NCBI RefSeq assembly: GCF_010994095.1
Contig: NZ_WJYO01000001.1
Location: forward strand, 620,001 to 684,000
Direction of reading: 5' to 3'
Origin: Mumia xiangluensis
GTDB lineage: Bacteria; Actinomycetota; Actinomycetes; Propionibacteriales; Nocardioidaceae
Length of the DNA: 64,000 nt
A program made the position numbers and the translations under genes. The stretch's first letter is position 1, and each line of letters starts with the position of its first letter. The notes beneath the pieces are model-generated. The model did not search any database, was not told where the DNA came from, and saw only the letters and a program-made list of their open reading frames with translations. This document shows positions 4,751 through 64,000 of the stretch, piece after piece.

Positions 4751-7414
4751 TCACTCCACGTCGGTGAGCAGCGCTCCCCGGGCAGCGCGTCGACGGCGCT
4801 GCTCCGCGGGGTCCGGCACGGGCACCGCGGCGATGAGCTGGCGGGTGTACTCCTCGCGCGGTGCGTGCAGCACCTCCTGCCGGGTCCCCTCCTCGACGAT
4901 CCGCCCGTGGCGCATCACGGCGACACGGTTGGCGAGCGCGTCGACCACCGCCAGGTCGTGGCTGATGAAGAGGCAGGCGAACTGGAGGTCGCGCTGCAGC
5001 TCGGAGAACAGGTCGAGCACCTTCGCCTGGACCGACACGTCGAGGGCCGACGTCGGCTCGTCCGCGATCAACAGGTCGGGATCGAGCGCGAGCGCACGGG
5101 CGAGGCTCACCCGCTGCCGCTGTCCACCGGACAGCTCGTGCGGGTACCGGCCGGCGTACGACGACGGCAGCTGGACGCGGTCGAGCAGGGCGGCGACCTT
5201 GGCCCGTTGATCGGAGGCCGACAGGTCGCTCTGCACCTTCAGCGGCTCGGCGACGCACTCGCTGATCGTGAGGTGAGGATTGAGTGAGGCCGCCGGGTCC
5301 TGGAAGACGAAACCGAAGCGTCCGCGCATCGACCGGAGCCGACGGTCGGACTGCGACGTGATGTCCACGTCCCCGATGAGAACCGCGCCCTCCGTCGCCT
5401 TCTGCAGGCCGACGGCCACGCGACCGAGCGTCGACTTTCCGCTCCCCGACTCACCGACGAGACCGAGGACCTCACCACGACGCACGACGAGGTCCACGTC
5501 GTCGACGGCGCGGAACGACGGCTGTCCGAGGCGACCGGCGAACTCGACGGTCACCCCCTGCATGGTCAGCACCGCCGGCGCGTCCTCCGCCACCGGCGGC
5601 GCGCCGACACCCTGGCCGAGGTGGGGCACGGCGTCGAGCAGCCGGCGCGTGTACGGGTGACGCGGAGCGGCGAACAGCCGGTCGACCGGTGCCTGCTCGA
5701 CGATCTCGCCCCGGTACATCACGACGGCGCGGTCCGCGACGTCGGCGACGACCCCCATGTTGTGGGTGATGAGGACGATCGCCGTGCCGAGCCGGTCGCG
5801 CAGGTCGAGCAGCAGCTCGATGATGGCGGCCTGCACGGTGACGTCGAGCGCGGTGGTCGGCTCGTCGGCGATGATGACGTCCGGCTCGAGCGCGATCGCC
5901 ATCGCGATCATCACCCGCTGCTTCTGGCCGCCGGACAGCTGGTGCGGGTAGTAGTCCACCCGCCGCTCCGGGTCCGGCAGACCGACGAGGTCGAGGAGCT
6001 CGACCGCCCGCGCCCGCGCCTCCTTCTTGGAGATGTCGCGGTGCGTGCGGATCATCTCCACGAGCTGCCAGCCGACGGTGTAGACCGGGTCCAGCGCCGT
6101 ACCGGGCTCCTGGAAGATCATCGACACCTGGTCGCCTCGGACGGTGCGGAGCTTGCGCTCCGACATCCCGATCATCTCGCGCGAGTCGCCGCCGGAGCCG
6201 GCGCGCAGCAGCGCCGAGCCCGAGACCACCGCCGTCGCCGGCAGCAGACCCATGACGGCACGCGAGGTCACCGACTTGCCGGAACCCGACTCGCCGACGA
6301 CCGCGACCACCTCGCCCGGGGCGACGTCGAAGCTGACGCCCTTGACCGCATGGACCGGTGCTGCACCGGTACGGAAGGTGACCGCGAGGTCGGTGAGGCT
6401 CAGCGTCGCCACACGGCGTACGTCCTCGTCCACGGCGGCGGCCTCCTCGGCCACCTCCGAGTCCAGGCCCGCCTCCGCGACGGCGGCGGCGTACTCGGCG
6501 CTGATCTCCTCCTCGTCCGAGGTGGTGGTGTCGCCCCCGCGTGCCTTGAGCAGCGGGTTGAGGACGTCGTTGAGGCTCTCGCCGACCAGCGTCACGCCCA
6601 TCACCATCAGGACGATGGCCATGCCGGGGAAGACACCCGTCCACCAGATGCCGTTGGTGGCATCGGACATCGCCTTGTTGAGGTCGTATCCCCACTCGGC
6701 AGCCGACGACGGCTCGATGCCGAAGCCGAGGAAGCCGAGGGCCGCGAGCGTGAGGATCGCCTCCGACGCGTTGAGTGTGGCGATGACCGGGACCGACTGG
6801 CGGACGTTGGCGAGGATGTGACGGAAGAGGATGCGCGGCGTCCGGGTGCCGACGACGCGTGCCGCGTCGACGTACGGCTCCACCTTCACCGCGAGAGTGG
6901 CGTTGCGGACCACGCGGAAGTACTGCGGGATGAAGACGACGGTGAGCGCGATCGCTGCCGCGAGGACACCCCCGACCACTCCGGACGAGCCGCCTCCGAC
7001 CACGATCGCGACCACGATCGCCAGCAGCAGCGACGGGAACGCGTACAAGGCGTCCATCACCAGCACGAGCGCCCGGTCGACCGGGCCTGACAGGAAGCCG
7101 GACAGTAGGCCCAGTGGCACGCCGATGACGAGCGAGAACGAGACCGCGAGGACGATCACCGCGACCGCGGTGCGTGCCCCGTAGATCACCCGCGACAGCA
7201 CGTCCTGGCCACCGACGGTGGTACCCCACCAGTGCTCGGCCGACGGTGGCTGCTGGGTGCCGAAGGGGACGCCGTCGACACGGGTCTCGTTGAACCCGTA
7301 CGGCGCCAGCCAGGGCGCGAAGACCGCGAGGATCAGGAACACCGAGACCAGGATGAGGCCGGCGACGAGCATCCCGCGCTGGAGACCGCGGGTGGACTTG
7401 AGCAGTGAGATCAT
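4751..7414 (-). CDS. Peptide-type ABC importer: fused permease + two ATPase domains
   Basis: 887 residues that are usually three separate proteins. Residues 1-300 are a DppC-type inner-membrane permease (first helix about 15-37; EAA-type loop near VGTRTPRILFRHILANV). An acidic linker (about 300-345) leads to a DppD-type ATPase with Walker A GESGSGKS (Lys380), signature LSGGQKQR and Walker B VIIADEPTTALD. A DppF-type ATPase follows with Walker A Lys660, signature LSGGQRQR and LLIADEPTSALD. Both end in the HPYTRRLL/EEYTRQLI tail typical of oligopeptide ATPases. There is no internal stop or frameshift. It starts 10 bases after the DppB-like permease stop and completes the importer with the lipoprotein at 8626-10224. 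Confidence 0.93.
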   Translation of the reverse strand: MISLLKSTRGLQRGMLVAGLILVSVFLILAVFAPWLAPYGFNETRVDGVPFGTQQPPSAEHWWGTTVGGQDVLSRVIYGARTAVAVIVLAVSFSLVIGVPLGLLSGFLSGPVDRALVLVMDALYAFPSLLLAIVVAIVVGGGSSGVVGGVLAAAIALTVVFIPQYFRVVRNATLAVKVEPYVDAARVVGTRTPRILFRHILANVRQSVPVIATLNASEAILTLAALGFLGFGIEPSSAAEWGYDLNKAMSDATNGIWWTGVFPGMAIVLMVMGVTLVGESLNDVLNPLLKARGGDTTTSDEEEISAEYAAAVAEAGLDSEVAEEAAAVDEDVRRVATLSLTDLAVTFRTGAAPVHAVKGVSFDVAPGEVVAVVGESGSGKSVTSRAVMGLLPATAVVSGSALLRAGSGGDSREMIGMSERKLRTVRGDQVSMIFQEPGTALDPVYTVGWQLVEMIRTHRDISKKEARARAVELLDLVGLPDPERRVDYYPHQLSGGQKQRVMIAMAIALEPDVIIADEPTTALDVTVQAAIIELLLDLRDRLGTAIVLITHNMGVVADVADRAVVMYRGEIVEQAPVDRLFAAPRHPYTRRLLDAVPHLGQGVGAPPVAEDAPAVLTMQGVTVEFAGRLGQPSFRAVDDVDLVVRRGEVLGLVGESGSGKSTLGRVAVGLQKATEGAVLIGDVDITSQSDRRLRSMRGRFGFVFQDPAASLNPHLTISECVAEPLKVQSDLSASDQRAKVAALLDRVQLPSSYAGRYPHELSGGQRQRVSLARALALDPDLLIADEPTSALDVSVQAKVLDLFSELQRDLQFACLFISHDLAVVDALANRVAVMRHGRIVEEGTRQEVLHAPREEYTRQLIAAVPVPDPAEQRRRRAARGALLTDVE

Positions 7415-62318: not shown

Positions 62319-62328
62319 CGGCACACCT

Positions 62329-62537
62329 CGCTGGTTGAGCGAGCACTCTCCGCTGGTTGAGCGAGCACCCTCCGCTGGTTGAGCGAGCACTCTCCGCTGG
62401 TTGAGCGAGCACCCTCCGCTGGTTGAGCGAGCACCCTCCGCTGGTTGAGCGAGCACCCTCCGCTGGTTGAGCGAGCGAAGCGAGTCGAAACCACACAGCC
62501 GCCGCGGTTTCGACTCGCAAGCTCGCTCAACCAGCGG
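62329..62537. repeat. Dispersed repeat R1, cluster E: 22-bp tandem array ending in an inverted pair
   Basis: Seven CGCTGGTTGAGCGAGC cores start at 62329, 62351, 62373, 62395, 62417, 62439 and 62461 (22-bp period). The last runs on into a full-length copy to 62492. A second full copy lies in opposite orientation at 62506-62537, so the pair forms a hairpin with arms of about 31 bases and a 13-nt loop. This gap separates the converging M14 and carbonic anhydrase genes. Confidence 0.92.
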
Positions 62538-62619
62538 CTGGGGGCTCACTCGGCGTCGCGGAGCAGCTTGCCCGGCAAGCTCGCTCAACCAGCGGCTGGG
62601 GGCTCACTCGGCGTCGCGG
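62517..62619. repeat. 58-bp partial duplication including the carbonic-anhydrase gene tail
   Basis: The 45-base segment 62517-62561 recurs at 62575-62619. It contains GCTCGCTCAACCAGCGG and the stop with the codons for Arg-Asp-Ala-Glu of the gamma-CA gene. The copy outside the gene (62517-62561) is therefore a stray 3' end. Confidence 0.85.
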
Positions 62620-63128
62620 TGCAGCTCGGTGAGTGCGAGGTAGTTGCGTGCGTTCACCGTGAGTCGCTCGCGTTCCTCGTCGGTGAGGGCGCGGCGCACC
62701 TTGCCCGGCACCCCCGCGACGAGCGAGCCCGGCGGGATGTCGGCGTTCTCGAGGACGACGGTGCCCGCGGCGACCATCGAGCCGGCGCCGATCTTCGCGC
62801 CGTTGAGCACGACCGCGCCCATGCCGATCAGCGAGTCGTCCTCGACGGTGCATCCGTGCAGCACGGCGCGGTGTCCGACCGAGACTCCGCTGCCGAGCGT
62901 GACCGGCTTGTCGGTGTCGACGTGGAACACGCAGCCGTCCTGGACGTTGCTGCGCTCGCCGATCGTGATCGGTGCGTTGTCGGCGCGGAGGACGGCGCCG
63001 TACCAGACGCTCGCCTGCGGCCCGAGGGTCACGGCGCCGGTGAGGACGGCCGTCGGAGCGACGTACGAGGTGGGATCGAGATCGGGGCTGGTCCCGGCGA
63101 TGGTCCGGAGCAGAGGTGCGTCGGTCAT
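62604..63128 (-). CDS. Gamma-carbonic-anhydrase-like hexapeptide protein (YrdA-like)
   Basis: 174 residues from ATG 63128. Left-handed beta-helix hexapeptides run through VWYGAVLRADNAPITIGERSNVQDGCVFHV, with His metal ligands in VFHVD, VGHRAVLHGC (three His across about 78-100), then MGAVVLNGAKIGAGSMVAAGTVV. The closest families are YrdA/PaaY and CamH gamma-class carbonic anhydrases, some of which are active. It is co-oriented with the upstream TetR gene, 31 bases apart. Confidence 0.9.
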   Translation of the reverse strand: MTDAPLLRTIAGTSPDLDPTSYVAPTAVLTGAVTLGPQASVWYGAVLRADNAPITIGERSNVQDGCVFHVDTDKPVTLGSGVSVGHRAVLHGCTVEDDSLIGMGAVVLNGAKIGAGSMVAAGTVVLENADIPPGSLVAGVPGKVRRALTDEERERLTVNARNYLALTELHRDAE

Positions 63129-63159: not shown

Positions 63160-63711
63160 TCAGCCGAGGAGGGCTCTCCGCGCCATCTGGGTGAGCAGCT
63201 CCGCCATCGCGTCCTCGGAGATCCGGGCGCTGTGCGGGGTGGAGTTGAGGAGCCCGAACGTCGCCTGTACGGCGGCGCGTGCGGTCCGCTGGTCGAGGTC
63301 GGGCCGCAGGCTGCGCAGGGCCCCGACCCACGTGTCGACGTAGCCGAGCTGGAGCTCACGGACCTGTTCGCGGCTCGACTCGTCGAGGTTCGTCCACTCG
63401 CGCTCCTGCACGACGATCAGCGCAGGGTTCGTGAGCGCGAAGTCGATGTGGAACGCGACCAGCGCGTCGAGCGCCTCCTTGGCGTCGGTGGCCTGGTCGA
63501 CACGCGTGCGGCCGCCGGTGCGCAGGGTGTGGCTGATCCCGACCAGCATCTCGGACAGGATCGCATCCTTGCCGGGGAAGTGGCGGTAGAGCGCAGGACC
63601 CGACACCCCGCACGCGGCGCCGATGTCGTGGACTGAGACACCGTGGAACCCCCGCTCGGCGAAGAGCGCTGCAGCGGTGGAGAGGATCTGCTCCTGACGG
63701 ATGGTGGCCAC
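63160..63711 (-). CDS. TetR-family regulator
   Basis: 183 residues from GTG 63711 (VATIRQEQILSTAAALFAERG). Helix-turn-helix VSVHDIGAACGVSGPALYRHFPGKDAIL (about 25-52). The C-terminal pattern NPALIVVQEREWTNL and RELQLGYVDTWV resembles KstR2-like TetR regulators of lipid or acyl-CoA metabolism. It lies between the carbonic anhydrase gene and the structured RNA at 63.77-63.94 kb, which could be its leader. Confidence 0.88.
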   Translation of the reverse strand: MATIRQEQILSTAAALFAERGFHGVSVHDIGAACGVSGPALYRHFPGKDAILSEMLVGISHTLRTGGRTRVDQATDAKEALDALVAFHIDFALTNPALIVVQEREWTNLDESSREQVRELQLGYVDTWVGALRSLRPDLDQRTARAAVQATFGLLNSTPHSARISEDAMAELLTQMARRALLG

Positions 63712-63765
63712 GCGGCAATGCTAGGTCGCCGCCGACGGTGAGGGTCGGCGGCGCTCTCGATACAC

Positions 63766-63936
63766 AGAAAAAGAGCGGCCGGCGGAGAACCGCCGGCCGC
63801 TGGGTCCGTGAGCGGTCTCGGGTCCGCTCACGAACGCTTCTCCTCCGCGTCACGGGGGCCGCGCGGAGGAGGTTCGGGGTGTTACAGAGAGAAATCTGCC
63901 ATGAATTCACCCCTGTGGGAATGGCAGAATGCAGCC
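63766..63936 (-). ncRNA. Structured leader or small RNA with a six-residue ORF
   Basis: Minus-strand transcript inferred from a TATTAG -10 hexamer (63948-63943) to the terminator T-run. In order: an ATGGCAGA start-codon stem (CTGCCAT at 63927-63921 pairs with ATGGCAG at 63902-63896), a mini-ORF ATG-to-TAA at 63902-63882 (Met-Ala-Asp-Phe-Ser-Leu) with AGGGGTG five bases upstream, a CCTCCTCC stretch, a 10-bp hairpin with a CCCCC loop (63871-63840), a 9-bp hairpin (63832-63807) and the terminator. It ends at the window edge, so a gene further right might be its source. Confidence 0.5.
63774..63801 (-). terminator. Intrinsic terminator of the edge RNA
   Basis: AGCGGCCGGCGG and its complement with a 4-nt loop; on the minus strand the stem is followed by CTTTTTCT. 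One of the few terminators here with a clear T-run. It is 63 bases before the TetR start. Confidence 0.88.
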
Positions 63937-64000
63937 ATGTCACTAATACGCCATGCATGCGCCGTTTGGCTCGCGATTCCAGCAATTCCAGGACAGGGGC

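Follow-up and report, generated by a model that had tools for sequence, protein, structure and literature searches.

Lying between two divergently oriented regulator genes, the last few hundred nucleotides of the window, i.e., the whole stretch of 64,000 nucleotides of Mumia xiangluensis DNA (an actinobacterial genus of the family Nocardioidaceae) that was analysed, raise the question of what a strongly structured intergenic element is doing there. On one side, the minus strand carries the gene of a TetR-family regulator (TetR_N and TetR_C_24 domains; 63160..63711) and then that of a hexapeptide-repeat protein (62604..63128, minus strand), for which "carbonic anhydrase" was the name used in the sequence-only reading of this DNA. 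On the other side, the divergent neighbour, starting at 64054 in window numbering and just beyond the window end, encodes a protein that combines a TrmB domain with a C-terminal helix-turn-helix of the LuxR/AsnC type, and the element is found between these two genes in 6/6 Mumia genomes. The earlier reading had offered two possibilities, namely an attenuated leader of the TetR-carbonic-anhydrase operon, where the start codon of a six-codon mini-ORF would be masked by pairing, or an independent small RNA resembling the C-rich ones of actinobacteria. Considering the observed anatomy, conservation and position of the element together with the separate leaderless layout observed for the TetR gene, positions 63768-63885 of the minus strand are here interpreted, at a probability of about 0.68, as encoding a small RNA (sRNA) of about 118 nt, free-standing and acting in trans, which would run from a predicted start at 63885 +/-2 to a U-run. 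In another part of the window, 3' of the hexapeptide gene (62320-62560, minus strand), tandem GCTCGCTCAACCAGCGGAGGGT-type repeats and a GGTTTCGACTCGCTTCGCTCGCTCAACCAGCGG-type inverted repeat were also seen.

Folding of 63766-63950 (minus strand) yields -96.7 kcal/mol, where shuffled sequences average -64.7 (z -6.83; 0/200 shuffles as good), while 63767-63886 alone reaches a z of -6.90 and the three Mumia genomes tested give -6.9, -6.6, and -7.3. As much as -73.5 of the -96.7 kcal/mol belongs to three downstream hairpins, all on the minus strand, namely (i) hairpin 1 (63840..63871), with a 10-bp stem and a 12-nt loop CGGCCCCCGUGA invariant in Mumia, (ii) hairpin 2 (63804..63835), with a 12-bp stem and an 8-nt loop ACCCGAGA invariant in 6/6 Mumia genomes, which under a shorter cut (63810-63841) scored a z of -0.73, and (iii) hairpin 3 (63768..63801), where a 12-bp stem (63801-63790 with 63785-63774) followed by CUUUUU provides the element with its own intrinsic terminator. 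The U-rich tail is present in the Mumia rows and weakest in G003, and the end formerly predicted at 63767 agrees with the predicted sRNA end at the U-run. The letters of the mini-ORF, CTGCCAT/ATGGCAG, ATGGC/GCCAT, CCTCCTCC, the two hairpins with C-containing loops and the terminator were all located on the minus strand where they had been described. In contrast to what had been proposed, CCTCCTCC is not free for pairing with ribosome-binding sites since it is already engaged in the stem of hairpin 1, as its 5' arm.

As for the two alternative stems upstream, through which the mini-ORF start had been supposed to be masked or released, the claim holds in part. Both are partly conserved in Mumia, and the consensus fold of the six Mumia rows, the cut of which excludes the upstream arm, contains the start-codon stem, with the CCAU-RUGG pairs in 6/6 rows and the two outer pairs broken in G003; in the minimum-energy fold, however, the start-codon stem is missing, the upstream ATGGC/GCCAT stem is formed and GGGGUG pairs with CACCCC instead. 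When 224 centres were scored for inverted repeats in Mumia, those lying 31 nt (ATGGC/GCCAT), 47 nt and 15 nt (the start-codon region) before the -10 hexamer came first, second and third, respectively. These two switch stems compete with each other and not with the terminator, for which no competing structure appeared in single-sequence or consensus folds.

Considering the block just upstream of the hairpins, it appears better read as a promoter than as a coding sequence, to judge from its letters and their spacing. A -35-like TTCCCA (63916..63921, minus strand), in the form TTCC(C/A)A, is followed after 17 bases by an extended -10-like TGG-CAGATT (63893..63901, minus strand), invariant in the six Mumia genomes and corresponding to the mini-ORF start of the sequence-only reading. 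This spacing is identical in 6/6 Mumia genomes, while the distance onward to hairpin 1 varies by species, as expected if that stretch were the 5' tail of a transcript. The whole upstream block is nearly invariant in the Mumia alignment (CCATTCC, then GGTGAATTC-R-TGGCAGATTTCT); within it, GGTGAATTC, in the promoter spacer (63903..63911, minus strand), is a putative protein-binding sequence identical in 6/6 Mumia genomes and not retained in G010, a genome of a second genus described below. The weakness of the promoter reading is that the hexamer CAGATT is without the first T of TANNNT. In M. tuberculosis, extended -10 boxes, i.e., TGN before TANNNT, have been mapped in a minority of promoters and linked to higher activity (PMC3898074). 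The mini-ORF for its part has a start codon (ATG or GTG) in 6/6 Mumia genomes and a stop after six codons in 5/6, the stop being gone in G003; its codon 5 alternates between Ser and Phe among the six, and no short ORF was found in the G010 homologue when the frame was read by eye.

If the promoter reading holds, the start formerly predicted near 63936 would be some 50 bases too far 5', and the two upstream stems, located 5' of the predicted transcription start, could perhaps be DNA operators rather than RNA structures. A candidate operator is the inverted repeat centred 47 nt 5' of the -10 hexamer (63932..63959, minus strand; about -60). Cleanly formed in G002 and G004 (TGTCG-N-CGACA), it is weak or imperfect in the own genome, G005 and G003; in G010, CATGTCG..CGACATG, with 8/8 pairs, lies 27.5 nt before the -10 hexamer. 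Such upstream repeat positions are those of classical activators. Conversely, a longer or dual-function RNA can be envisaged, starting further 5', with both stems forming in the RNA and TTC-RTG-GCA-GAT-TTC being translated or pairing with targets. The near-invariance of that block in Mumia, the ATG or GTG kept in all six genomes, the rank of both stems among the three best of the 224 centres and the presence of one of them in the consensus fold speak for it, but the only part of the block surviving in G010 is the extended -10 shape TGGCAnATTTnT (TGG-CATATT there), codon 5 switches and the stop is lost in 1/6, and where a start at 63936 needs a TANNNT there is none (TATTAG in the own genome), in letters that are not conserved. 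Such a longer RNA is accordingly held to be quite improbable.

Another point is whether TetR depends on a transcript passing through the terminator, against which its own promoter layout speaks. Downstream of the latter, TAGCAT (63718..63723, minus strand), the predicted -10 box of a leaderless layout proper to TetR, is placed 6 nt 5' of the GTG at 63711-63709, and a -10 box is present 6-9 nt before the TetR start in 6/6 Mumia genomes. More broadly, a TANNNT box stands 5-9 bases before the start codon in 22/25 of the closest TetR homologues, including all six Mumia (25/30 loci were used, L053-L057 being left out as weaker matches), against a background of 50/4743 ATG/GTG sites at the same loci, TetR starts counted in. 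Outside Mumia and G010, this layout is seen in 15/18 homologues, some from genera without a detected sRNA element. In M. tuberculosis, leaderless mRNAs account for about one quarter of the genes whose primary start has been mapped (PMC3898074). Given the leaderless layout in its homologues, TetR most probably has a transcription start to itself, 3' of the terminator.

These observations bear directly on the attenuator, where the element would be the leader of the TetR operon and translation of the six-codon ORF would choose between termination and read-through. A GGTG five bases before the short-ORF start, a terminator followed by a gene on the same strand and the partial conservation of both switch stems in Mumia would fit such a leader. 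Nonetheless, TetR has its own leaderless layout in 22/25 close homologues, also in genera lacking a detected element; the mini-ORF is not conserved, with its stop lost in G003 and the ORF absent in G010; its start falls within the conserved promoter-like block; the switch stems are 5' of the predicted start; and the folds offer nothing that competes with the terminator. The attenuated leader once put forward is, as such, very hard to maintain, and of all the readings weighed it is given the least credence. Regarding the surroundings of TetR, tandem GACCGGCGGGAAGGGGCGCGCTC-type units in G002 (L006, L031) separate the sRNA terminator from the TetR promoter, the sRNA being intact. In several other genera (L036, L037, L039, L041 and others), GTTAAC-type palindromes precede the TetR homologue, with a divergent carboxylase-like frame (by eye); none was seen in the Mumia spacer, and TetR control may have been rewired in Mumia.

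Returning to the sRNA gene, the element was found by DNA search in 6/6 Mumia genomes, and among 98 relatives eight matched, i.e., the six Mumia and two others through 24 bases of the terminator palindrome only. A covariance model of the Mumia element (R1) applied to 341 family genomes returned six strong matches, all six Mumia; five weak matches at 25-29 bits (G016, G336, G190, G300, and G182) were inspected and taken as unrelated hairpins. With eight preliminary candidates scored in each genome and G010 escaping it, this search shows the absence of the element elsewhere only weakly. Within the Mumia alignment, invariance extends furthest over hairpins 1 and 2, loops included, and the terminator stem is nearly invariant. 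Two-sided change affects 1/34 pairs, a count reached by 102/500 shuffles, and the stems are as invariant as the loops; with stems varying so little, covariation inside the genus carries no signal.

A comparison outside Mumia was provided by G010, a Nocardioidaceae metagenome-assembled genome (MAG), where homologues of both genes, i.e., TetR (108498-109034, minus strand) and the TrmB/LuxR-type regulator (109293-110261, plus strand), are likewise divergent with a short gap. This gap contains, in order, TGGCATATTTGT, a hairpin with a CCCCCGU loop, a hairpin with a ACCCGAGA loop and a terminator-like hairpin of 19 pairs with a weak T-run, the -10-like box being TGGCATATTT. Respective to Mumia, the CCCCCGU and ACCCGAGA loops are kept and the stem sequences are replaced, from which it follows that the loops are probably functional parts. 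The whole G010 stretch folds at a z of -5.24 (-3.4 for an earlier, differently cut stretch), while hairpins 1 and 2 cut out singly, at z +0.96 and -0.59, are no better than shuffles. Since R1 gives the site 18.5 bits, below reverse-strand artefacts, its homology rests on synteny and common short motifs. In a collection of 84,980 species, from which the records of the window's own genome were possibly excluded, a three-motif pattern was matched by only three stretches, i.e., in Mumia sp. zg.B17, M. quercus and the Nocardioidaceae MAG. The two-loop pattern CCCCCGT-N12..42-GACCCGAGA gave 38 matches in 35/341 family genomes, against four for the backward-pattern control; with 30/38 loci folded, the 38 comprise the six Mumia sRNAs, one in G010, two in a hairpin near tRNA-Val, and 29 counted as chance. 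One of the latter, L117 (G300), reads CCCCCGT...ACCGGCGGCACGC...GACCCGAGA at about 1501, with 13 further bases in common with G010; without TGGCAnATTT upstream and without similar hairpins, it was not retained as a homologue. G010 is the one genome outside Mumia where a homologue was found, and the element would represent a new sRNA of the genus Mumia, related to that of one other genus.

Against this background, the spacer might have no RNA function at all, and comprise operators, what remains of a promoter, and a terminator insulating TetR between divergent regulators. The inverted repeats and the position between two regulator genes are compatible with such a view, but no invariant run in Mumia is longer than those of hairpins 1 and 2, loops included, and in G010 the loops persist despite new stems; as a pure insulator would have no need of loops, a spacer devoid of RNA function is deemed unlikely.

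The loop of hairpin 2 led to a second, putative RNA. Two of the loop-pattern matches (G171 and G190, genus g7) correspond to a distinct hairpin, exposing the same G-ACCCGAGA-C loop and lying 5' of tRNA-Val(TAC). DNA searches with this tRNA-Val hairpin gave matches in 254/341 family genomes at E <= 0.001, the matched part being known for the matches listed, and in 6/6 Mumia genomes, at one place each, upstream of tRNA-Val (E of about 2e-6). The own-genome copy (L156:1492-1535, minus strand; contig C2, about 459899-459924) is located behind a peroxiredoxin-like frame (by eye). Out of 25 exact GACCCGAGAC sites in the own genome, a stem of at least 5 bp exists at two, i.e., hairpin 2 (12 bp) and the tRNA-Val hairpin (15 bp); in G005, among the 12/13 loop sites fetched, it exists at the tRNA-Val hairpin only. 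In a class-wide sample allowing three mismatches, 27/37 Nocardioidaceae genomes match, with up to five matches per genome, changed stems and a mostly intact loop, against 35/357 genomes outside the family under the same criteria, nearly all with an altered loop. The weak R1 match in G016 (L023:1496-1537), taken above as unrelated, is a 14-bp hairpin that carries the ACCCGAGA loop although it lies inside a dprA-like frame (by eye), either by chance or as a further copy.

Among 40 fetched places (L236-L275), 38 qualify, for 39 copies in total, L243 and L261 remaining outside through a mismatch beside the loop-closing pair; tRNA-Val(TAC) is present at 20/40. The copies were chosen by a loop-containing pattern and a minimum stem length of 6 bp. 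Loop identity and pairs 1-6 therefore follow from this choice, which had no bearing on pairs 7-15, on the -10 box or on the U-tail. Similarly, the loop is carried by 30/30 BLAST loci, these being the best matches to a loop-containing query. In alignment A4 (40 rows, i.e., the 39 copies plus the own-genome copy; 39 distinct), the stem of 12-18 bp covaries, with 110 two-sided cells against a shuffled mean of 27 and a score of 0.525 against 0.131, each reached by 0/500 shuffles, and the signal collapses on sliding; two-sided changes affect 8/15 pairs, a bare count that 138/500 shuffles reach. In 28/39 copies, a TANNNT box begins 24-28 bases ahead of the loop, and no copy has one anywhere else in the 60 bases preceding the loop; NANNNT is found at 26-28 in 35/39, and TTT follows the stem in 34/39. 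No clear -35 was seen, TTGACA being matched at 4 or 5 of 6 bases in 15/28 tested. In the Mumia loci L151-L156, a GCACAGA-N6-TCTGTGC-type inverted repeat, clearest in L152, directly precedes the presumed -10 (by eye) and is a possible operator. From the position of the -10 box, the U-tail and the covarying stem, the hairpin looks like an RNA of about 45 nt that starts at the base of the very hairpin terminating it. No Rfam match was obtained in the loci scanned, and this RNA is apparently undescribed so far.

The link between hairpin 2 and this tiny RNA lies in the identity of the loop, with ten identical bases that occupy an equivalent structural position in Mumia and with the loop present also in G010. 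With a tiny-RNA profile including the CCGCYGG core (R2), hairpin 2 scored 18.4 bits (E 0.0096), i.e., less than the 20.4 bits obtained by a chance hairpin of the window, and homology is hence unsupported; the R2 match at 5563-5608 of the window, a GC-rich stretch without the ACCCGAGA loop, was rejected. Considering that a given 8-nt loop has by simple arithmetic, at equal base use, a chance of about 1 in 65,000, a partner common to hairpin 2 and the tiny RNA is considered plausible. Going further, the G-ACCCGAGA-C loop could be a lineage-specific RNA recognition element of Nocardioidaceae read by one partner, whether an RNA-binding protein or an mRNA site UCUCGGGU, the Mumia sRNA being a composite that carries this loop; such a view is tentative, and somewhat less probable than its contrary. 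If true, the Mumia sRNA could, e.g., compete with the tiny RNA for the partner.

For the Mumia sRNA itself, a mechanism can be proposed. RNA polymerase would start near 63885 from the extended -10 TGG-CAGATT and the weak -35 TTCCCA, a promoter of the kind often needing an activator, and the divergent TrmB/LuxR-type regulator, acting on the upstream inverted repeats, would be the most likely one. The transcript would then fold into three hairpins and end at the third, the intrinsic terminator. Loops 1 and 2 are probably the working parts and would most likely pair with G-rich stretches, e.g., the ribosome-binding sites of target mRNAs; alternatively, loop 2 may contact the partner common with the tiny hairpin RNA. 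As no dedicated study of Nocardioidaceae small RNAs was found in the open-licence literature, these RNAs seem hardly charted. Should the sRNA reading be true, Mumia would offer a compact test case with one regulator, one sRNA and two conserved loops. The tiny hairpin RNA has a wider bearing, since a covarying, promoter-bearing hairpin of some 45 nt, invariant in its 8-nt loop and without Rfam match, raises the question of what reads this loop.

Respective to known systems, the element has no Rfam match at gathering score and none convincing at E <= 10, in agreement with the earlier reading, where it was likewise left without a known family. The best sub-threshold match, ar14 (RF02344), resembles it through the CCUCCUCC strand and the GC-rich terminator hairpin, but with 23.4 bits against a gathering score of 58.8, and it belongs to another phylum, being alphaproteobacterial. 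Like attenuated leaders with short ORFs, the Mumia element presents a short ORF, then hairpins and a terminator; unlike them, its downstream gene has a promoter layout of its own and the ORF is not conserved. With the Nocardioidaceae ACCCGAGA hairpin RNA, it shares the identical G-ACCCGAGA-C loop on a long stem (12 bp in hairpin 2) and a -10-like box upstream, whereas the former consists of one hairpin, some 45 nt long and provided with a U-tail of its own, the stem core CCGCYGG of which is absent from hairpin 2.

The closest comparison is with 6C RNA, which is described as two stem-loops with around six C in each loop, of about 100 nt in C. glutamicum (PMC4046766), and is said to bind mRNA targets through its C-rich loops (Mai et al. 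2019, cited in PMC9569102). The Mumia element is also actinobacterial and intergenic, with two hairpins exposing C-containing loops, and it could be a diverged member performing the 6C job in Mumia. The two such hairpins followed by a terminator, the length of about 118 nt against about 100 nt in C. glutamicum (PMC4046766) and the finding of 6C in 0/6 Mumia genomes, a weak test where the control was found in 1/14 genomes and below cut-off, would accord with it. Nevertheless, RF01066 had no match at gathering score, nor up to E 10 at the locus, and the loops CGGCCCCCGUGA and ACCCGAGA hold runs of five and three C, not about six each, with no C run proper in the second; membership is therefore unlikely. 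Of the sequence-only alternative of a free sRNA of the C-rich actinobacterial kind, the free sRNA is retained, with its promoter-like block, hairpins, terminator and occurrence in one genus and one more, and the assignment to 6C is not. The Mumia sRNA would not be 6C, yet it may have a similar working mode, in which C-containing loops meet their targets.
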